Part shown: positions 25,834 through 41,578 of the stretch, in pieces
Position numbering within the stretch: position 1 is the stretch's first letter
How the letters are laid out: every line of letters starts with the position of its first letter
Source: Verrucomicrobiota bacterium
GTDB lineage: Bacteria; Verrucomicrobiota; Verrucomicrobiia; Opitutales; UBA2995
Assembly (NCBI GenBank): GCA_027622555.1
Contig: JAQBYJ010000046.1
Location: 1-41,578, forward strand
DNA length: 41,578 bases
Reading direction: 5' to 3'
Translations under genes and position numbers: made by a program
Notes under the pieces: model-generated
The model's input: only the letters and a program-made list of their open reading frames with translations
Database searches by the model: none
Told to the model about the DNA's origin: nothing

Positions 25834-28068
25834 ATGGCTCAACTGGAACATATTGAAGCGATTGAGAAACGGCTTTGGTCGGCGGCGGATACGTTGCGGT
25901 CGAATTCCAATTACGCGAGTAACGAGTATTTTATGCCGGTCATGGGGTTGATCTTTTTGCGGCATGCCTATAGCCGGTATCTGGCGGTGAAGGATGGGAT
26001 TGAGGCCGGGCTGCCAACGGAGGCCTACGAAGCGGCGATCCGGCAGGTGGTGGGTTCTTTGTCCACCCAGTCGCTGGTGGCGACGAACAAGGACAAGTAT
26101 GCGCTGATCCGCGACGGGGTGCAGGTGAGCTTTCGCAATGAGATGGGCGAGCGGGTGAAGGAGCGGCTGCGGTTGATCGACTTCGAAGATCACCGGAACA
26201 ATCATTTTCTCTGCGTGCGGGAGTTGTGGGTGCGCGGCAGTCTTTACCGCAGGCGGGCGGACATCGTGGGGTTCATCAACGGATTGCCGCTGTTGTTCAT
26301 CGAGTGTAAAAACATCCACCACAACCTGAAGGCGGCGTTTGAAAAGAATTTTTCGGACTATCTGGACACGGTGCCACACCTGTTTCACCACAACGCGGTT
26401 GTGCTCTTCGGTAATGGCGAGAAAGCCAAGGTGGGCTCCATCACCAGCAAGTGGGGGCATTTCCACGAGTGGAAGCGTCTGGCCGAGGAGGAGCCGGGGG
26501 TGGTCGATATGGAGACCCTGTTGAAGGGCGTGTGCAAGCGGGAGAACCTACTGGACCTGGTGGAGAATTTTATCCTCTTCGACGAGTCGTCGGGCGAAAC
26601 GAAAAAGATCCTGGCGCGCAATCACCAGTTTCTTGGAGTGAACCGGGCGCTGGACGCGGTGCGCGGGCGCAGGGAACGCATGGGAAAGTTGGGGGTATTC
26701 TGGCACACGCAGGGCGCAGGCAAGAGCTACTCGATGGTCATGTTTACCCGCAAAGTGCACCGGAAGCTGGGCGGCAATTTCAGCTTTGTCGTTCTGACCG
26801 ACCGGGACGACCTGGACACCCAGATCTACAAGACCTTTGCCGGTTGCGGGGTGGTGGACCACGACCGCGATCCCTGCCGGGCGGCGAGCGGGAGGCACCT
26901 GGGCAGCCTGATGCAGGAGCACAAGGCCTATGTGTTTTCGCTGATTCAGAAGTTTAACCAGGAAGTGGACCGGAAGGTGGGCTACACGCCGCGGGACGAC
27001 ATCATCGTGATCACCGACGAGGCGCACCGCACCCAGTATATATTAAGAGATGATGCGGAAGCGCTGGTTAACACGGTTAATTGTGTGGGCGTAATGGGTC
27101 GTGGTATTGCATTACAGTTTAAAAATCAGTTTCCAGATAACTTCAAAGCCTATGCAACCGCTCATAAGGATGGTCTGCTAATGCCAGGCCGAATGTTTAT
27201 TCACGAGACTGGGGAACTGACGAATCCCAAGTATATCATCAATTTTCCCACCAAAAGGCATTGGCGTGGTAAAAGCCGGATGGAGGATATTGACTCAGGG
27301 CTAGAGGCACTAGTTGCGGACATTCGGCGTTTCAATATTAGATCCATTGCCATTCCTCCTCTGGGGAGCGGACTTGGCGGATTGGACTGGAGTGATGTCA
27401 GACAACGGATTGAAGTAGCCATGCAGTTCATTCCTGAGGTGGAAGTGCGACTCTATGAGCCGAGTGGCGCCCCGGAAGCTGACAAGATGGTCCGTAATCG
27501 GGAGGTGTCGAAAATGACTGCTGGGCGTGCTGCGCTCGTGGAACTCATTGATCGCTACCTGAGTGGTTTGTTGGACCCGATGATATCTCTTTTGGAAGTG
27601 CACAAGCTCATGTATTTCATGCAAGAAGCTGGGCAGCCGCTTCGTCTGAAGTACGAAAAAGGTACCTACGGCCCATATGCTGCCAATCTGCGACATGTTC
27701 TCAATCATGTGGAAGGTCACTTGGTTTCGGGCTATGCGGACGGAGGTGACAATCCTGAGAAGCAACTAAAATTGGTTCCTGGAGCAGTTGAGGACGCACG
27801 GAATTTCTTGGAAGATGACAGCGCCACCCGTGAAAGATTCACAAAAGTATCTGAGCTTGTAGAAGGTTTTGAATCGCCCTTCGGGCTCGAGTTGTTGGCT
27901 ACTGTACATTGGATAGCTAAAAACGAGAAGGCCAATTCGTTCATAGACCTGCAGAAAAAGACCTATGACTGGAATGATCGCAAAAAGCAATTCAGTCCTC
28001 GGCAGTTGGAGTTAGCCGCAAATGCTCTATCGCGGCATGGATGGATTTCGGATTTTGGGAGGAATTAA
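25834..28068 (+). CDS. Chimeric ORF: HsdM N-term, HsdR N-term, DarG
   Basis: 744 residues in one frame. Residues 1-~62 match the N-terminal helical part of type I methyltransferase subunits (EKRLWSAADTLRSNSNYASNEY, GLIFLRHAYSRYLAVKD). Residues ~62-402 are the N-terminal half of a type I restriction subunit: nuclease D143/E157-C-K159, Walker A GAGKS (294-298) and DEAH (395-398). At residue 402/403 (nt 27039/27040) it switches to a DarG-type macrodomain (VNTVNC, GVMGRGIALQFK, INFPTKRHWRGKSR, PPLGSGLGGLDW) and DarG C-terminal region to residue 744. The methyltransferase catalytic domain, helicase motifs after DEAH, HsdS and DarT are missing. The restriction part is surely non-functional; the DarG part lacks only about ten N-terminal residues and could still be active if expressed. 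Confidence 0.8.
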   Translation: MAQLEHIEAIEKRLWSAADTLRSNSNYASNEYFMPVMGLIFLRHAYSRYLAVKDGIEAGLPTEAYEAAIRQVVGSLSTQSLVATNKDKYALIRDGVQVSFRNEMGERVKERLRLIDFEDHRNNHFLCVRELWVRGSLYRRRADIVGFINGLPLLFIECKNIHHNLKAAFEKNFSDYLDTVPHLFHHNAVVLFGNGEKAKVGSITSKWGHFHEWKRLAEEEPGVVDMETLLKGVCKRENLLDLVENFILFDESSGETKKILARNHQFLGVNRALDAVRGRRERMGKLGVFWHTQGAGKSYSMVMFTRKVHRKLGGNFSFVVLTDRDDLDTQIYKTFAGCGVVDHDRDPCRAASGRHLGSLMQEHKAYVFSLIQKFNQEVDRKVGYTPRDDIIVITDEAHRTQYILRDDAEALVNTVNCVGVMGRGIALQFKNQFPDNFKAYATAHKDGLLMPGRMFIHETGELTNPKYIINFPTKRHWRGKSRMEDIDSGLEALVADIRRFNIRSIAIPPLGSGLGGLDWSDVRQRIEVAMQFIPEVEVRLYEPSGAPEADKMVRNREVSKMTAGRAALVELIDRYLSGLLDPMISLLEVHKLMYFMQEAGQPLRLKYEKGTYGPYAANLRHVLNHVEGHLVSGYADGGDNPEKQLKLVPGAVEDARNFLEDDSATRERFTKVSELVEGFESPFGLELLATVHWIAKNEKANSFIDLQKKTYDWNDRKKQFSPRQLELAANALSRHGWISDFGRN

Positions 28069-34178: not shown

Positions 34179-36029
34179 TCAAGACGGTTCGCGGATTAGT
34201 ATCTGCAAATCGTAACCGTCCTTGGCCCTGCGAATTTTTACCAGACCTCTGTGTTTCTTAATCGTCTGGCAGGCCTTAAAAAATTTGAGACTGATGGCTT
34301 CCGGCAGCGTCCTGGAATTGGATGAAGGAAACGTTTTTTCTTCTTCGATGCCAGTGCCTCTTACAGTTATTTGGGCCCCTTTACTTAATTTCCCTTCAAC
34401 CAGAATGTTCAGCTCGCCGTTCTCTTGCTTCAGGGCTTTATACATATGATGGATCATGTCTCTGAGCCCCTCTTCAAGTTTCATGGCATCCCCGTTGAAA
34501 GGGTTAAGGTTCGCCCCATATTTTACGGTGACCTGGTTGAGATTGAGGTCCTGGACAATGCGATTGATGATCATTCGAACGTCCGTGGACTCCAGGTTCT
34601 GTTTACCCATATCATTGAGTCCGAATAAATCGTCTGCCACGTTTTCAAGGCGACCAACCTCTGCCTGAATGGTTTTGATAAAATCTGCCGGGATCGGTGC
34701 GTCTTTGTCTTTTACGCCGAGAAGTTGTGCGAAGGTTTTTAAAGAAACCAGCGGATTCCTGAGTTCGTGAGAAAGGATGAGTCCCAAGGTATTGAAAACG
34801 GTATCCAGTTCACCGACTTGCTCTTTTTTGTTGATATTGAGCCTTTCGGTTATGTTTTCGTATCCACCAATTATCCGATATTCGGAGTTGGAGTAGGGGA
34901 GCACTCGAGTGAAGATACGGAAGCTGGATTGTTGCGCCTCAGCGATTGAATCGCTCGCCCTGCCTGTTTGGGCGGCCTGGTAAAGAGCTTCTTTCAGGCC
35001 TAGAGGAATGGGATCTCCTACCTGCGTTTGCCAGACCACTTCGCCTTGTGCATTTGCGATGACCCATTTCCCTGGAACAGACTGAAGAAGAAGCTGCGCT
35101 CGCTGTATATCGTGTTGAATGGAATTCTGACGGCGACTCAGGTTTAGGCACGCTCCAAACTGCTCAGCAATGTTTTCCAGATCTTCGAGTATTTCCCGGG
35201 AATACTTTTCCCCATCGTTTCGTTTGCCGGTGAAAATCCAACCATTTAGTCCACCATCAAAGAACAGTGGAAAAACCGCTTCGGCCTGCATTCGCTTGAG
35301 GTTATCGCGTAAAAATAATTTGTCGGGCTCGTCCAGAATGTTCTCAACTGTGTGAAGCCGAAGAGTGATCAAATTCTCCCTTAGCCATACTACAAAAGGA
35401 TGGGTGTCTGAATAGCTTAAGCCATTTACATCTCCGAAGACCAAATTGCCGGCGAGGAGTTCAAATTTTTCGCCGCTCTTAATGAAGGCTCCGGACCTTG
35501 GTATGCGGAGATGGTTTTGAATCAGCTTTAGAAAGTGAGTGCCAAGTTCTTTCTCGCTGCCAATCCTGGCCAAGATTTCACTCGCATAATCGAAAGGACG
35601 ATAGGGGGGAGCTGAATGGGCAGGTTTTTCAACCTCATTCAAGGTTTCCAGACGAATTATTTTGTCATGAAGGAATCTGTTTTGTTCTTCCAGGTTAAGA
35701 ATCTTCTGGCTGTGTTGAGTGATCTCTCGGAGTTGTACCTCCTTGGCTTCCTTGTCGACTATTGCAAAGTAGTTGTTCTCAACCGCTTGTTGGTAGGGCA
35801 CCGTTCCAGGGGTTCCGACTGCGATGATGTGAATTCCACTGCCGGGTTCCTGATAGGGCGGTGATTTGTCCTGAAACAGATCATACACAATGGTGCATGG
35901 TCTTAGTCTTTCAGCCATTCCACGAATGTCCTGTGAACGAGATACCTCAACGTCGCCAAGGTCGTCCAACAACCTTGACCAAGTATCTCTTAGTTCGCTG
36001 TCAGCTGTTACTAGGAATATTCGTGGCAT
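34179..36029 (-). CDS. Receiver/GAF/PAS histidine-kinase-like protein, degenerate
   Basis: 616 residues, soluble. Residues 1-~100 resemble a receiver domain with Asp50 at the phosphoacceptor position (TIVYD), followed by a coiled-coil stretch, a GAF-like region (~150-295), a PAS-like region (~310-395) and a HisKA dimerisation helix with His421 in LGLILSHELRNPLVSLKTF. The C-terminal ATPase region is degraded: the N-box is replaced by DMIHHMYKALKQ with no Asn pair, and the G1 region is only RGTGIEE. It probably cannot bind ATP normally, and may accept phosphate from the neighbouring kinase or act as a scaffold. Its start overlaps the upstream kinase by 19 bases, so the two are coupled. Confidence 0.75.
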   Translation of the reverse strand: MPRIFLVTADSELRDTWSRLLDDLGDVEVSRSQDIRGMAERLRPCTIVYDLFQDKSPPYQEPGSGIHIIAVGTPGTVPYQQAVENNYFAIVDKEAKEVQLREITQHSQKILNLEEQNRFLHDKIIRLETLNEVEKPAHSAPPYRPFDYASEILARIGSEKELGTHFLKLIQNHLRIPRSGAFIKSGEKFELLAGNLVFGDVNGLSYSDTHPFVVWLRENLITLRLHTVENILDEPDKLFLRDNLKRMQAEAVFPLFFDGGLNGWIFTGKRNDGEKYSREILEDLENIAEQFGACLNLSRRQNSIQHDIQRAQLLLQSVPGKWVIANAQGEVVWQTQVGDPIPLGLKEALYQAAQTGRASDSIAEAQQSSFRIFTRVLPYSNSEYRIIGGYENITERLNINKKEQVGELDTVFNTLGLILSHELRNPLVSLKTFAQLLGVKDKDAPIPADFIKTIQAEVGRLENVADDLFGLNDMGKQNLESTDVRMIINRIVQDLNLNQVTVKYGANLNPFNGDAMKLEEGLRDMIHHMYKALKQENGELNILVEGKLSKGAQITVRGTGIEEEKTFPSSNSRTLPEAISLKFFKACQTIKKHRGLVKIRRAKDGYDLQILIREPS

Positions 36030-38041
36030 GGGTTAAAACCAATCGCAAATTTGGTGCCTACTCCGGGTTCGGACTCGATACGTGTAATCGCGTCGTGCTC
36101 ATTGAGGATTTCCCCACTTACAGTGAGGCCTAAACCGAATCCGTGTGTTTTTGTAGTATAAAAGGGTTTGAAGACATTTCTTCTGATTTCTTCCGACATT
36201 CCTTTGCCATTATCCTCTACTTCAATCCATACTTTTTCCTGACTACTGTAGACACGAACGATTATTCGTTTCTTGTTTTGGTCCTGATCAATGGCGTCGA
36301 TCGCATTCAGTAAAATGTTTAGCAGCACTTGTCTGAGTGAACTTGGATCCGCCATAACCGAGTCTACATCGACAACAAAATCCTTGGTCATTTCGATCCC
36401 TTTTTGGCGACCCTTGGAGGTTACCAGGTCTAGCGCGGCAGATCCTATTTCGCCCAGGGATACAGCGGTCATCGTGCCTACCGAAGGTTTGGAACTGTCG
36501 AGCAGGCTCTGACACAGGTCTTCAATTCTCTGAACTTCTTCCTGAATAATTCCTGAGAACTCCTCACGGAACGAAGGCTCGTTATAGCGGACAGGAAGTA
36601 GCTGAAAAAATGTTTTAATGGCAACCAATGGGTTGCGGATCTCGTGAGCCAGACTGGCTGCAAGTAGGCCAACAGATGCGAGCTGTTCGGAGTTTCTAAC
36701 CTGACGAACGATTTGGCTATGCTCCAATAATGGCCGGAAAGTTTCGCACAACAATTTCAGAGTCTGACCATCGGAATAAGTGTATGGATTTTTGGATGCC
36801 GGTCGGCCCAAGCCTACCATAAAGGCCACGTTTTGTTCAGCATCTTCCAATACCACCAGCATGATTCGAAGATTATTTTCTTCAAAGAAAGTCTTCAGGC
36901 CCTTGACGGCCCCAATTTCCCGAACGCGCTCCATGCTTTCATAGGATTCCCAACCATGCTGAACGAGGTGATTAACTTCGTTGCTGCTCATAGCCATTTT
37001 GACGTTCTCATACTCGAGATATTCTTCATTCGGCATAAATACAGCCGCATGGTCGGTGCCAGCCCATTCCATCAGAATTTCCTGGAACCGTGCCTTAATC
37101 AATTCTTCATCCGCGTGTTCTTTTCCTAAATCGTATATGCGTTGAAGCGCGAGTTCGTTGGAGGATTTCTTCTTCTCTATAAAACGTTCCAGGAATTGCT
37201 CCAATAAATTGTTTCCCGGATAGATGCTCAATAGAACCACAACCAAGGCGAGTACCTGGGCGTAATCGTCGGAAAAAACTTCACCCGTTATTCGTTTGAT
37301 CACAAGAAACTCCAAAATTCCTGCAGCCAGGATGACCAAATATTTGATCGAGGTTGCGGTTAGGTACCGCGGCTCGTAGATCCTCCGATTGGTCATGGTG
37401 AATCCCGAGATGCTGTAGTATCCAACTACCAGGATTGGGGCCAGTTTCATCAGTTCGGTAGCGCCCATGGCTCCACTTCCAGTGGTGAATATGAATGCCC
37501 CCAGGGCGAACAAACATCCGGTCGCGAATACTTTTAGGTCTAGTTTCACAATACCGTCAGCGACCTTAAGGGCGCGGTAGGATTGAACGCCTAGAAATAT
37601 GAGTGAAACCAGAGAATATATCCCATGAATGTACCACCCCCAGCCGAAAAGAAGGCCACCTCGCACAGACCCAGGCTTTAAAAACCAATCGGTTTCAGTC
37701 AACCAGAGGCCCGCCAGTCCAATAATAAAGTAGGGGGCGGTTTTCTTGAAGAGCCCACCCAGGTTAATATTGGGCATTACAATGGATTCTTTCAGACAGA
37801 AAAATGCCCATGGCACCATTCCGCCGAATCCCACCATCTTCCGAATCCAAAACACAGCCTCTGTTGCCGACGAGTAGTTGTGAGCGGTAAATGAGCCCAC
37901 CCAGAGGGTTGTGATAATACTTAAAAAGCCAAAACTTCGATTTATTGCCCGGTCCGGATTGGCCAAGAATATTAATAGCCCCACCAGGACGTTGGTGCCG
38001 GCCGCCAATACTAAAATGATTATAGATTCAAACGAAGTCAC
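36011..38041 (-). CDS. Membrane sensor histidine kinase
   Basis: 676 residues. About seven or eight hydrophobic helices occupy residues 5-275, then a coiled coil, a GAF-like segment (~300-440), and a complete kinase core: His466 in ASLAHEIRNP, N-box NILLNAIDAI (575-584), G1 DNGKGM (610-615) and the G2 loop TTKTHGFGLGLT. Architecture resembles PrsK-type sensors of exopolysaccharide/PEP-CTERM systems, but no such genes are nearby. The full catalytic set suggests that this is the active partner of the degenerate protein at 34179. It starts 14 bases after the ketosynthase stop. Confidence 0.85.
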   Translation of the reverse strand: MTSFESIIILVLAAGTNVLVGLLIFLANPDRAINRSFGFLSIITTLWVGSFTAHNYSSATEAVFWIRKMVGFGGMVPWAFFCLKESIVMPNINLGGLFKKTAPYFIIGLAGLWLTETDWFLKPGSVRGGLLFGWGWYIHGIYSLVSLIFLGVQSYRALKVADGIVKLDLKVFATGCLFALGAFIFTTGSGAMGATELMKLAPILVVGYYSISGFTMTNRRIYEPRYLTATSIKYLVILAAGILEFLVIKRITGEVFSDDYAQVLALVVVLLSIYPGNNLLEQFLERFIEKKKSSNELALQRIYDLGKEHADEELIKARFQEILMEWAGTDHAAVFMPNEEYLEYENVKMAMSSNEVNHLVQHGWESYESMERVREIGAVKGLKTFFEENNLRIMLVVLEDAEQNVAFMVGLGRPASKNPYTYSDGQTLKLLCETFRPLLEHSQIVRQVRNSEQLASVGLLAASLAHEIRNPLVAIKTFFQLLPVRYNEPSFREEFSGIIQEEVQRIEDLCQSLLDSSKPSVGTMTAVSLGEIGSAALDLVTSKGRQKGIEMTKDFVVDVDSVMADPSSLRQVLLNILLNAIDAIDQDQNKKRIIVRVYSSQEKVWIEVEDNGKGMSEEIRRNVFKPFYTTKTHGFGLGLTVSGEILNEHDAITRIESEPGVGTKFAIGFNPCHEYS

Positions 38042-38055
38042 AGTATGTAAAGTAT

Positions 38056-39267
38056 CTAGTCAGCAGTTAGAACGACGGTCGAGTTATTGTTTCCAATTCC
38101 ATGGCAATTCATGATGGCCGTTTTGGGTTTGAGCAGGCGAGGAGTTTTTGACAGGACGAGGGAACAATCAGGATCTTGAAATTCCAGATTGGTGGTGGGC
38201 GGTATGAGGCCTGTTTTAAGTGTTATCGCGGTACTAATTAATTGAATGGCACTGGCTGCTCCAAGAGGGTGCCCGATCGTGCCCTTGATCGATCCAGCGG
38301 GTATTGAATGGATCCAGTTTCCAAATACCGATTCAAGCGCCTGGGATTCACTGATATCCAGTATAAAATGTCCAGGCCCCCAGGTGGAAATATAATCGAC
38401 AGATTCCGGTCTCATGCAGGCGTTGTTTAATGCATTTTCGATGACCCAGGCGTAACCGTCTCCTGGCGCATTCCCGAGATCTTTCCCCGAGGAGTATCCG
38501 CGTATAGTCGCATAGGAAGGGCGTGGACTGTCCATCGATTCTAAAATCACATAACCTGCACCTTCACCTATAACGCCTAATTCACGAAACACGTCGAATG
38601 GTTTTCCAGAAGTTGCGGGATCCTCATACTCAGGAGAAGTCAGTCTCGCAGTCGTTAATTCGGCCATTGGGTGCAAGATCAGTGGTGCTTCTGCACCACC
38701 ACAAATCGCTATTTTTGCCTGGCCGGATGCGATCAGCTCTGCCCCGGCACAAATCGCATCGCCTCCTGAACAGCAAGCATTCTGAACGGCGGAAATCCTT
38801 GTTCGGGATGGAATGAATCGCGCAATGGATTCGGAAATGGCAATGGGGGAATAAGAAAAAGTAGTAAACGGCATAGCCGCCTTTACTCCCTTTTCAGGAA
38901 CCCGTCGTATGGTCTTAGCGACATGGTCTAAATCCATAAGGGCGGTCCCCGTTATGATCGGAACTTGTCCGACGTTTTCCCATTCGGCCGGACTTATAGC
39001 AACGTCTTTCAATGCCATTTCCGCTGCTGCAAGGCCGAGTTGAGTATGACGCGGGAATCGGTTGATCTTTGCTTCCGCTCTTACATATTTGTCCGGGTCA
39101 AATCCTTCCACCGGGCATCCGATCGCTTTTTCCAGGCCAAGTTCTTCCAGGTGCGGCAAGTATTTGGCGGTTGATTTTCCTGAGATCAACCCGTTCCAGA
39201 ATGCCTCGAGGCCAATTCCGCAAGCAGCGATGACTCCAATGCCGGTAATTTTAACCTGCTGCCTCAT
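38056..39267 (-). CDS. Divergent beta-ketoacyl synthase
   Basis: 403 residues with the thiolase fold of type II ketosynthases (PF00109/PF02801). The nucleophile is Cys165 in NACCSGG; Lys328 and the second catalytic His333 are in KGTIGHPLGAA. The first His, normally in an HGTxT element, is replaced: the segment reads STWGPGHF with Trp296 at that place. The terminal FGFGG element is also altered to HGIGN. It therefore differs from normal chain-elongating FabF enzymes and may be a non-elongating acyltransferase or a partner subunit. Its ATG overlaps the oxidase stop by four bases (ATGA), so the two are translationally coupled. Confidence 0.75.
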   Translation of the reverse strand: MRQQVKITGIGVIAACGIGLEAFWNGLISGKSTAKYLPHLEELGLEKAIGCPVEGFDPDKYVRAEAKINRFPRHTQLGLAAAEMALKDVAISPAEWENVGQVPIITGTALMDLDHVAKTIRRVPEKGVKAAMPFTTFSYSPIAISESIARFIPSRTRISAVQNACCSGGDAICAGAELIASGQAKIAICGGAEAPLILHPMAELTTARLTSPEYEDPATSGKPFDVFRELGVIGEGAGYVILESMDSPRPSYATIRGYSSGKDLGNAPGDGYAWVIENALNNACMRPESVDYISTWGPGHFILDISESQALESVFGNWIHSIPAGSIKGTIGHPLGAASAIQLISTAITLKTGLIPPTTNLEFQDPDCSLVLSKTPRLLKPKTAIMNCHGIGNNNSTVVLTAD

Positions 39268-40730
39268 GAATATCGACCGGGTGCTATCAAATTCAAGGGG
39301 TCAAAGAAGTCTTTGAATTTTCGAATTAGCGGCGGCATTTCTAAATGTTCCATCTGGTCTATTCCAGCGCGGTAGGGAGGGAATCCCTTTTCAATGAGGG
39401 CTTTTGTCAGTCTTTCCAGTGCATTCCTTACTTTATTTGCTTCTGTGGTTTCAAAATGTAATGTGATGATGGCACTAACCGATCGTTCCACATTCACTAT
39501 ATAGGTGATAGAATATTTATATCCTTCACTGTCGAAAAGTGCTCTTAATTCCTTGGTTGCATTCTTCGATGGAGGGAGCGTTGCATTTAAATATACCGCT
39601 AGTTCTTTGGAAAAGTTTGGGTTATCACCCGGCATTTTTAGGCTTAGAAGTCCGATGTTTGTCGGATTGCCTTCGCTCAATGCGTGTAATTCGCCCAGAG
39701 AGTCGAAGAAGATTCCTAGATTCCGAATGAAGGGAATTGGTATCCGTTTACCCCATGTGACAATTTGGGCGATTTTTTCCGGGGAAAATGAGTCGAGTCT
39801 CGTGGATGAGGAGATGAGCTTTTTCATTTCTCGAATCATCGCCTTAGTAACAGCTTTGCGCCCATGGATAGCAGCAACCGCCTGAAACCCGGCGGAGCCA
39901 ACTTGATTGATGACTTCGTTAATTTTACTGTCTGGGAGTTCAGGAAATTTAGTGGCAATCAATCCCTTCATAACATATTCTTTTCTTCCAGGATCGCCTA
40001 TGTGGGTAATTTCGTTAAGAAGCTTATTTCGATAAAGTGTCTTCAGGTCGTCTATCAGGACATCGAGGTCAGAATTCTGTATAGACAAAAATGTGCCTGA
40101 CTCCTGTTTGGGAAATATCGAAAACCATCCTCCGAGGACTATCCCGAAATTTGATTGAAAGAAGAGTCCTTCCCAATTGGGCCCAATTCCGTCCGGATGA
40201 GACTTGGACCACAATCGGCTGTCTTGCCGAATAATAGTACCATCAATGGTAAGTATCTCTAAACCGTGAAGGTCGTTCGAACGTGTTCGATAGTATCCGA
40301 TTCCTCGTTCCAGACAATTTCCAATAATACTGGTGTCACTACCGCCGGCCGTAACGTTGAAAGTAAACTCAGGATAGTTGTTTTTTAAATACGTATAAAG
40401 ATCCTTCTGAGAAACTCCTGGCTCAACATAGACTTTATTAGAATCTGGCTCGCAGGGGCCCATGGTTCGAAGTCGTTCAAGGCTTACAATCACACAGCCA
40501 TCCCTTACGGGAAGGTGTGCTCCATAACCCCAGTTTTTTCCGCGACTGACAGGGTAGAGAGGAATCCCGTTTGTCTTTGCGATAGAAACTACCTGAACGA
40601 GGCAATCGCGTGTACCGGGTTTGAGGAGACAAGGAACTGCCCTGGTCGTCCCGCTTAGTGTCGGCTCAATCTGGTCGGGTGGTACGATTTCCAAATCATC
40701 AACCTCTGCCCAGATGTGAAGCTGACTCAT
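39264..40730 (-). CDS. FAD-binding oxidase/dehydrogenase, VAO-type
   Basis: 488 residues from ATG 40730, chosen because it forms a TGATG overlap with the preceding kinase stop; the frame is open to ATG 40763. An FAD-binding PCMH-type domain (PF01565) is indicated by SRGKNWGYGAHLPV (residues ~62-75) and VYVEPGVSQKDLYTYL. The C-terminal FDPLNLIAPGRYS is typical of vanillyl-alcohol oxidase and 4-cresol dehydrogenase relatives, which oxidise phenolic or alcohol substrates, some with covalent FAD. No second electron-acceptor subunit is seen. Tight coupling to the kinase fragment and ketosynthase suggests a common product or signal. Confidence 0.75.
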   Translation of the reverse strand: MSQLHIWAEVDDLEIVPPDQIEPTLSGTTRAVPCLLKPGTRDCLVQVVSIAKTNGIPLYPVSRGKNWGYGAHLPVRDGCVIVSLERLRTMGPCEPDSNKVYVEPGVSQKDLYTYLKNNYPEFTFNVTAGGSDTSIIGNCLERGIGYYRTRSNDLHGLEILTIDGTIIRQDSRLWSKSHPDGIGPNWEGLFFQSNFGIVLGGWFSIFPKQESGTFLSIQNSDLDVLIDDLKTLYRNKLLNEITHIGDPGRKEYVMKGLIATKFPELPDSKINEVINQVGSAGFQAVAAIHGRKAVTKAMIREMKKLISSSTRLDSFSPEKIAQIVTWGKRIPIPFIRNLGIFFDSLGELHALSEGNPTNIGLLSLKMPGDNPNFSKELAVYLNATLPPSKNATKELRALFDSEGYKYSITYIVNVERSVSAIITLHFETTEANKVRNALERLTKALIEKGFPPYRAGIDQMEHLEMPPLIRKFKDFFDPLNLIAPGRYS

Positions 40731-41344
40731 CAATTGGGGTTCCATGTTTTCAAAGACAGGCAAATGCTTGTACCCAGGCCTTCCTCAGATTTTACGGAAA
40801 TGGTTCCGCTATGAGCCTCTACGATGCGTTTACAGATGATAAAGCCTAGCCCGGTTCCTTTTTCGCCCTTAGTTGTGAAATTGCCCTGCTGCATTTTGTT
40901 TATGGTTTCCTGGCTCATTCCACTACCGTTGTCTGTGACAGAAATGACCGCTTTGTCTCCCCCTGATTCCACACTAATTTGTACGGTGGTTGGCTCATCG
41001 TCCCCCGGTTTATTTGCGTCTAAGGCATTACCGATAAGGTTTTGAAAGAGTCTGGATATTTCCGAGATACTGCCTGAGAGCGAGAGGCTGCTATCTCCCT
41101 CTATTATTATGTTTTTGCTGTCGAAGAAGATGTCGGATTTTACTTTCTTAACGGCGTCTATAATTGAGAAAATTTCAGCACCTTGGTTCCCCTTGCAAAC
41201 TTCTTTCCAAGATTGTGCCAGCTCTCTGCAGTAATTGGCATTTCTTTCCAGTGTCTCCGCATAAGCCAATGCATTTTCCAAAGGAATTCCTTTAGCTTCA
41301 TTTGCGTTTTTTACTTCGTGTAACAGGAGAGAGCTATACCCGAG
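40730..41344 (-). pseudogene. Histidine kinase, 5'-truncated by the IS
   Basis: The native part, read leftward from the IS boundary at 41344, encodes a helical stretch with LLLHEVKN, possibly a residual phosphoacceptor helix, an N-box NLIGNALDANK, G1 DNGSGM and G2 KGEKGTGLGFIICK of HATPase_c. The ATG-initiated frame of 224 residues starts inside the IS end, so its first ~20 residues are not native. Sensor domain and most of the dimerisation domain are missing to the right. The ATPase core is intact, but signalling is presumably lost. The original gene opened the operon containing the oxidase and ketosynthase. Confidence 0.75.
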
Positions 41345-41578
41345 TGAGCCTGCCCCGAAAAATGGGAGACATGTTGTGCTAAACAATGCATAAAATGAGA
41401 ACAATGAGTCAAAGACGAAAGTATACGAAAGAATTCAAGGACAACGCCGTATCGCTGGTGTTATCGGGACGAGCAGCGATAGAAGTGTCGCATGATCTTG
41501 GAATCGACATTTCCACGTTAAACCGCTGGAAAAAGCTATATCTGGATGAGCAGGATATCAAACACGATGGCCTTGGCG
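41345..41578 (+). mobile_element. IS3-family insertion sequence, left part
   Basis: The element begins TGAGCCTGCCCCGAAAAATG at the point where the kinase gene is cut and continues into an OrfA start. The end sequence resembles the TGA...GCCCC...GAGAC ends of IS3-family elements of the IS51/IS407 type. The right end and OrfB lie outside the window, so target duplications and completeness cannot be judged. Confidence 0.8.
41404..41578 (+). CDS. IS3-family transposase OrfA, partial
   Basis: 58 residues to the window edge, beginning MSQRRKYTKEFKDNAVSLVL, with a helix-turn-helix EVSHDLGIDISTLNRWKK typical of IS3/IS911 OrfA (PF01527). An in-frame ATG nine bases earlier (41395) is possible, but GAGA before 41404 makes the later start slightly better. 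OrfA would be joined to OrfB by a programmed frameshift further right. Confidence 0.85.
   Translation, partial: MSQRRKYTKEFKDNAVSLVLSGRAAIEVSHDLGIDISTLNRWKKLYLDEQDIKHDGLG

Follow-up and report, generated by a model that had tools for sequence, protein, structure and literature searches.

Two-component systems of the NtrC type (e.g. AtoS/AtoC and ZraS/ZraR) combine a HisKA/HATPase histidine kinase with a receiver-containing sigma-54 regulator and a -24/-12 target promoter. Ketosynthases have been studied separately: in FabF of E. coli, H303 and H340 hold the acyl carbonyl and the GFGG loop acts as gate and oxyanion element (PMC7138838). Within trans-acyltransferase (trans-AT) polyketide synthases, KS0 domains pass acyl groups without condensing them (PMC4661987, PMC6855096), and loss of the HGTGT histidine is regarded as a mark of non-elongating ketosynthases (PMC4661987). 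Proteins resembling both groups are encoded together on the minus strand of contig JAQBYJ010000046.1 of a Verrucomicrobiota bacterium (41,578 nt; this whole stretch is termed the window), where a ketosynthase-fold protein (KS) and a FAD oxidase (OX) lie head to tail with sensor kinases. As judged by sequence comparison, the window carries a copy, rearranged and in part decayed, of a signalling locus that is spread across the Verrucomicrobiota. No description of the locus was found in the open-access literature, and nothing in those papers contradicted the statement of a first-pass annotation that no system with this set has been described.

The minus-strand order is the C-terminal part of a receiver-histidine kinase (REC-HK), OX, KS, a membrane sensor kinase (HK7TM), a receiver-like/GAF/HisKA protein and then valyl-tRNA synthetase. 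The kinase, FAD oxidase and ketosynthase identities assigned on first pass were confirmed by Pfam, which detected FAD_binding_4, the N and C domains of ketoacyl-synt, HATPase_c and HisKA. The features are:

41345..41578, plus strand: end of an IS3-like insertion sequence and start of its transposase OrfA (about 41404 on), running off the contig
41342..41344, no strand: 3-bp target-site duplication, CTC in gene sense, with the same CTC at the junction on contig C96 of this genome
40730..41344, minus strand: C-terminal half of REC-HK (about residue 180 to 384), cut by the insertion sequence; HATPase_c
39264..40745, minus strand: OX, of the vanillyl-alcohol oxidase/p-cresol methylhydroxylase (VAO/PCMH) type; start probably ATG 40745, alternative ATG 40730
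38056..39267, minus strand: KS, a KAS II homologue of 403 amino acids, assigned by Pfam, NCBIfam, a motif table and a tree
36011..38041, minus strand: HK7TM, membrane sensor histidine kinase with an N-terminal seven-transmembrane (7TM)-type region; HisKA and HATPase_c
34179..36029, minus strand: receiver-like/GAF/HisKA protein with a degenerate ATPase; HisKA alone found

Conservation and control of the locus

KS loci were collected by a KS profile search in the class and phylum, after which 37 further loci were read; the relatives searched were Verrucomicrobiota, and many of their genomes are drafts. The 54 KS loci came from at least 23 families. HK7TM lay directly after KS in 54/54 loci and started no more than 30 nt from the KS stop in 48 of them. 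A third kinase was present in 52 loci and REC-HK was nearby in 47, while a FadL-type channel and OX were found in 28 and 19 loci, respectively. Control KS loci were not flanked by this kinase set. Three congeners (i.e. G002, G004 and G005) carried all five genes in unchanged order as an intact operon, and a member of another family of the order (G330) had OX, KS, HK7TM and the third kinase with ATGA overlaps. The first-pass annotation had grouped kinases, OX and KS into one functional unit that scattering of the genes in relatives would overturn; the relatives upheld this grouping, with KS and kinases together in every locus. The arrangement exceeds chance, given the identical order in three congeners and the 54/54 adjacency of KS and kinase, and the anatomy and conservation of the locus, as read from these comparisons, are close to certain.

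A converse search was made in a 288-genome sample of the phylum. The module KS (profile hits with E up to 3.3e-108, all remaining KS scoring 1.6e-104 and weaker) was present in 48 genomes, each of which also had HK7TM. OX was found in 20 of the 48 genomes with KS as compared to 2 of the 240 without it (Fisher p about 1e-15). Both exceptions were explained, by a contig split in G452 and by a kinase locus without KS in G621, and the occurrence of OX apart from the locus was rejected. Kinases of the HK7TM type without KS comprised two that stop at a contig edge (G525 and G611) and a solitary kinase (G517); in a further genome, G521, what remains of KS is a C-terminal fragment next to the kinase, close to the start of the contig. 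OX and FadL were missing from most class-level loci, where KS and the kinases stayed, and in family f13 the linkage of KS to kinase persisted after loss of both.

Outside the window's order, the locus usually consists of an operon for a FadL/TodX-type outer-membrane channel (PF03349 at 4e-69), REC-HK and sometimes the VAO/PCMH-type OX and, divergent from it, a second operon for KS, HK7TM (with 7TM, GAF and PAS regions), a receiver-like/GAF/PAS kinase and a sigma-54 response regulator of the AtoC/NtrC type. This regulator combines a sigma-54 activation domain with a receiver. Its best NCBIfam match was AtoC, below cut-off, and that of the kinases was AtoS. At full score the regulator was found in 16/54 loci, and it was absent from the window genus and f13. 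In some relatives, lipid-related genes lie 3' of OX (L103:14036-14623 and L095:14726-15511), encoding a glycerol-3-phosphate acyltransferase (PF02660) or an MlaE-type permease (PF02405).

Sigma-54-type sites were sought with the pattern TGGCAY-N6-TGCW, which has the correct -24/-12 spacing. Such sites were present upstream of FadL in 14 of 28 loci, against 0.04 expected, and the other locus genes together yielded one, before a REC-HK gene. A control scan with wrong spacers (i.e. 4, 5, 7 and 8) found no site before any FadL gene. When the region upstream of KS was scanned, 16 of the 17 matches were on the FadL-ward strand. From the number and exact spacing of the sites upstream of FadL, the FadL-REC-HK-OX operon is very likely a target of sigma-54, which the window genome also encodes. 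The regulator of the locus itself would be the natural activator of this operon.

Active sites of the encoded proteins

The ketoacyl-synt N and C domains span the full length of KS, and KAS II was matched in the PDB at 1.5e-50. Against the NCBIfam model fabF, KS scored 237 bits and did not reach the cut-off of 494. In the tree, a branch with 100/100 support set all 54 proteins apart as a separate clade. The cysteine was kept in 54/54 and the Cys-His-His triad in 0/54; nine of nine canonical KS from the same phylum read C/HGTST/K-H, and ordinary KS with the full triad are present elsewhere in these genomes. At the first histidine position, His was found in 31 proteins, Trp in 16, Asn in 4 and Tyr in 3; the second held Asn in 36, His in 8, Thr in 5, Cys in 3 and Ser in 2. 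The window KS has Cys165, Trp296 in place of the first catalytic His, His300, Lys328 and His333. Replacement by Trp was common to the window family and f13, and the HGTGT histidine was lost in these two and in f36. The FGFGG gating loop reads HGIGNNN in the window KS and HG-[ILMVFT] in most members. Because the Cys-His-His triad was never found and the proteins form their own clade, KS is probably not an ordinary elongating synthase. Of the substitutions seen, that of the first His by Trp would be the hardest to reconcile with ordinary condensation.

Families f96 and f109 (L113, L116, L119 and L120) showed another pattern of active-site change, in which the first His is lost (N[AC]xxD), the second is kept and Arg replaces the conserved Lys. 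Structure models of KS and OX, built from two-row alignments of the window and L007 sequences, failed, with predicted local distance difference test (pLDDT) values of 28 and 37.

OX was matched by FAD_binding_4 (PF01565) at 6.5e-17. Its family profile matched p-cresol methylhydroxylase in the PDB at 1.2e-81, followed by vanillyl-alcohol and eugenol oxidases. A C-terminal Tyr-Arg pair (Y453-R454) was invariant in 11 aligned OX proteins and aligned with the phenolate-binding pair of the VAO/PCMH family. The Tyr of the GYG motif is present in the window OX, most phylum members having GLG or GMG; the flavin-linking residue falls in an unaligned stretch. A 4-alkylphenol-like substrate is plausible because of the VAO/PCMH profile match and the invariant Tyr-Arg.

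Among the kinases, HisKA_7TM, GAF and PAS were detected in the HK7TM orthologue of L108, and the H, G1 and G2 boxes are intact in HK7TM as well as in the histidine kinase core of intact REC-HK. The last kinase had lost its N, G1 and G2 boxes in 12 of 12 examined proteins of the window family and f13, and retained them in families f36 and f29. As these ATPase motifs are lost, the last kinase is, by its motifs, a pseudokinase in the window's order. Loss of the ATPase motifs parallels loss of FadL, of the regulator and, in most cases, of OX.

The window copy and its decay

Within the window genus, all remaining genes have merged into one operon, from which the channel and regulator have been lost and in which the last kinase is now a pseudokinase. 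The junctions between these genes had been described accurately on first pass: the kinase stop TGA (40730-40732) overlaps an in-frame ATG (40728-40730) as TGATG at 40728-40732, OX stop and KS ATG share the sequence ATGA at 39264-39267 and 14 bases separate the KS stop (38056) from the GTG start of the next kinase (38041). Use of the TGATG as the actual OX start was rejected, as the congeners conserve a start (MDxxLxSQLHxW) whose counterpart in the window is ATG 40745 (MEPQLMSQLHIW); the true overlap of kinase and OX is therefore probably 16 nt. The first-pass annotation overlooked the fifth gene (34179-36029), which overlaps the HK7TM gene by 19 nt and is part of the set. It had also deduced a fixed stoichiometry of kinase, oxidase and ketosynthase from the overlapping codons, a deduction that was rejected, since overlapping codons and coupled starts do not establish stoichiometry.

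Intact REC-HK is a receiver-HisKA-HATPase protein of 384 amino acids encoded by the first gene in the three congeners. The part in the window shares 70-77% identity with these orthologues, and the missing residues 1-181 were found on contig C96 of the same genome (C96:144-686); the possibility that the window encodes a complete short kinase was rejected on these grounds. CTC abuts the end of the insertion sequence at both junctions. The element has the inverted terminal sequence TGAGCCTGCCCCGAAAAATGG and matched 14 places in the genome, several of them at contig ends. As the break lies inside the HisKA helices, this strain probably makes no working REC-HK. The operon is damaged or missing in other congeners too. 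In G001, a genome assembled as one contig, the region L008:9008-11256 holds a premature stop in REC-HK as well as a deletion. This deletion has taken out KS and HK7TM and fuses, in frame, the first ~140-150 OX residues with the C-terminal part of the last kinase. No OX match and no module-type KS were found in G003. The operon is dispensable within the genus.

Upstream of REC-HK in this genus lie genes for a SixA-like histidine phosphatase, a TolC-family protein, a large hybrid kinase and a hexosaminidase-like protein, in the same order in L024:1021-7622, L009:1-6612, L010, L008 and on contig C96. They place further phosphorelay parts beside the locus. Elsewhere in the window, sulfatase-like, sialidase-like and TonB-receptor-like genes (578-24376) were judged by eye to be a glycan-use region. 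An open reading frame of 744 amino acids (25834-28068), in which HsdM/HsdR-like type I restriction pieces are joined to a DarG-like macro domain, looks by eye like the scar of a defence island.

Candidate mechanisms and comparison with known systems

The circuit probably senses a fatty acid-like or aromatic compound. We tentatively favour, at somewhat less than even confidence, a mechanism in which KS would be an acyl-thioester-responsive partner of HK7TM in a relay controlling FadL and OX. A hydrophobic compound or the acyl thioester pool of the cell would set the state of KS, whose Cys would accept an acyl group from an acyl carrier or similar thioester, the normal decarboxylative step being presumably impossible. 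The adjacent HK7TM would read KS as acyl-loaded or free, and the kinases would hand phosphate to the sigma-54 regulator, switching on the FadL-REC-HK-OX operon. FadL would then take up, and OX oxidise, a hydrophobic compound (fatty acid-like or 4-alkylphenol-like), closing a feedback loop. The joint claim is slightly more doubtful, namely that a membrane histidine kinase has recruited KS as its sensory or adaptor subunit and that KS reports the acyl-thioester pool to a multi-kinase relay, which through sigma-54 would control a fatty acid/aromatic channel and oxidase throughout the Verrucomicrobiota.

What speaks most for a sensory KS is the persistence of its pairing with HK7TM after loss of OX and FadL. 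Several observations weigh against such a role, the strongest being G621, in which locus L168 has FadL, REC-HK, HK7TM, the third kinase and the sigma-54 regulator, no KS lies between FadL and HK7TM, and OX is on another contig. As its kinases, FadL and regulator occur without KS, KS is not indispensable to the relay. KS was moreover the bait for the loci, which inflates the 54/54 adjacency, a bias that the converse search softens without removing. The window KS keeps the second His, and many members may still condense, because the first His is kept in 31/54 and the second is usually Asn, as in the Cys-His-Asn that is the working triad of KAS III. Finally, the operon of the window genus has neither FadL nor regulator, and no sigma-54 site was found upstream of it.

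Models in which the locus makes a signal or serves nutrient uptake are the main rivals to a sensory KS. The first-pass annotation, partly supported overall, had suggested that one operon both makes and senses a small-molecule signal. KS, as a variant condensing enzyme, would load an acyl or aryl group, OX would finish a diffusible hydrophobic product, FadL would allow its re-entry, HK7TM would sense it and sigma-54 would provide quorum-like autoinduction. OX tracks the locus, many KS members keep Cys-His-Asn and positive feedback is built in, as FadL, oxidase and kinase share a sigma-54-controlled operon. However, most class-level loci lack OX and FadL and still have KS and kinases, and Trp replaces the first His in f13 and the window family. 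The operon showed no gene for an acyl carrier, a thioesterase or any other biosynthetic step, nor did the locus show one for a carrier, thioesterase or export. With OX (19/54) and FadL (28/54) dispensable while KS and HK7TM are kept, a sensor role fits better than a signal synthase, and we consider the synthase unlikely. A nutrient-sensing role is a little less likely again. An external alkylphenol or fatty acid would enter through FadL and be oxidised by OX, KS and the kinases would sense the resulting acyl thioester, and transporter and oxidase would be induced, as AtoSC does for acetoacetate. The FadL/TodX and VAO/PCMH families do act on alkylphenols and fatty acids, the phenolate-binding Tyr-Arg is invariant in OX and AtoS/AtoC are the best NCBIfam matches, but the loci hold no further catabolic genes, a dedicated KS would not be needed and FadL and OX are lost in many loci.

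KS could instead be an active condensing enzyme specialised for a membrane lipid, with kinases that merely regulate membrane composition, an improbable arrangement. The fold and cysteine are intact and an acyltransferase or MlaE permease follows OX in some relatives; against this, few loci have lipid neighbours, none of the 54 proteins has Cys-His-His and full-triad KS exist elsewhere in the genomes. A chance or housekeeping neighbourhood without functional link has a negligible probability. Stop/start overlaps are common in bacterial operons and several congeners have lost or disrupted this one, yet this explanation is already contradicted by conservation: adjacency in all loci from at least 23 families, a conserved divergent partner operon with sigma-54 sites and the absence of this kinase set around control KS loci.

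If the sensory role of KS is correct, bacteria have turned a fatty-acid condensing enzyme into a sensor part that reads the state of lipid synthesis; we know of no other such case. Should KS prove to be an enzyme, at least 23 families of this little-studied phylum still conserve the locus, with its predicted regulator, promoter and target operon. It offers candidate functions for proteins likely to be annotated just as 'beta-ketoacyl synthase', 'FAD-binding oxidoreductase' or 'histidine kinase'.

Compared with described systems, the locus resembles diffusible signal factor (DSF) and LuxI/LuxR circuits in a possible loop of hydrophobic compound, sensor and regulator, but differs in having altered KS chemistry and neither a DSF synthase nor a LuxI homologue. 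KS shares with KAS II (FabF) the full-length fold, nucleophile Cys and Lys, and departs from it in triad, FGFGG loop, fabF score, separate clade and coupling to kinases. Like KS0 of trans-AT polyketide synthases, it keeps the Cys and, in the window family, f13 and f36, has lost the HGTGT His; unlike KS0, it is a stand-alone gene among kinases with no polyketide synthase, and in most phylum members it is the second His, not the first, that is lost. OX resembles p-cresol methylhydroxylase, eugenol oxidase and vanillyl-alcohol oxidase in its PDB match, Tyr-Arg pair and, in the window, GYG Tyr, whereas it lies under a signalling locus, no cytochrome partner gene was seen and most phylum members have GLG/GMG. 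The channel belongs with FadL/TodX by PF03349 and differs by its pairing with REC-HK and its sigma-54 promoter. As compared to NtrC-type systems, the proteins of the locus score far below every equivalog cut-off and the window operon has no regulator; the locus further differs in uniting three kinases, of which one has become a pseudokinase in this order, with a ketosynthase-fold protein, FadL and an oxidase.

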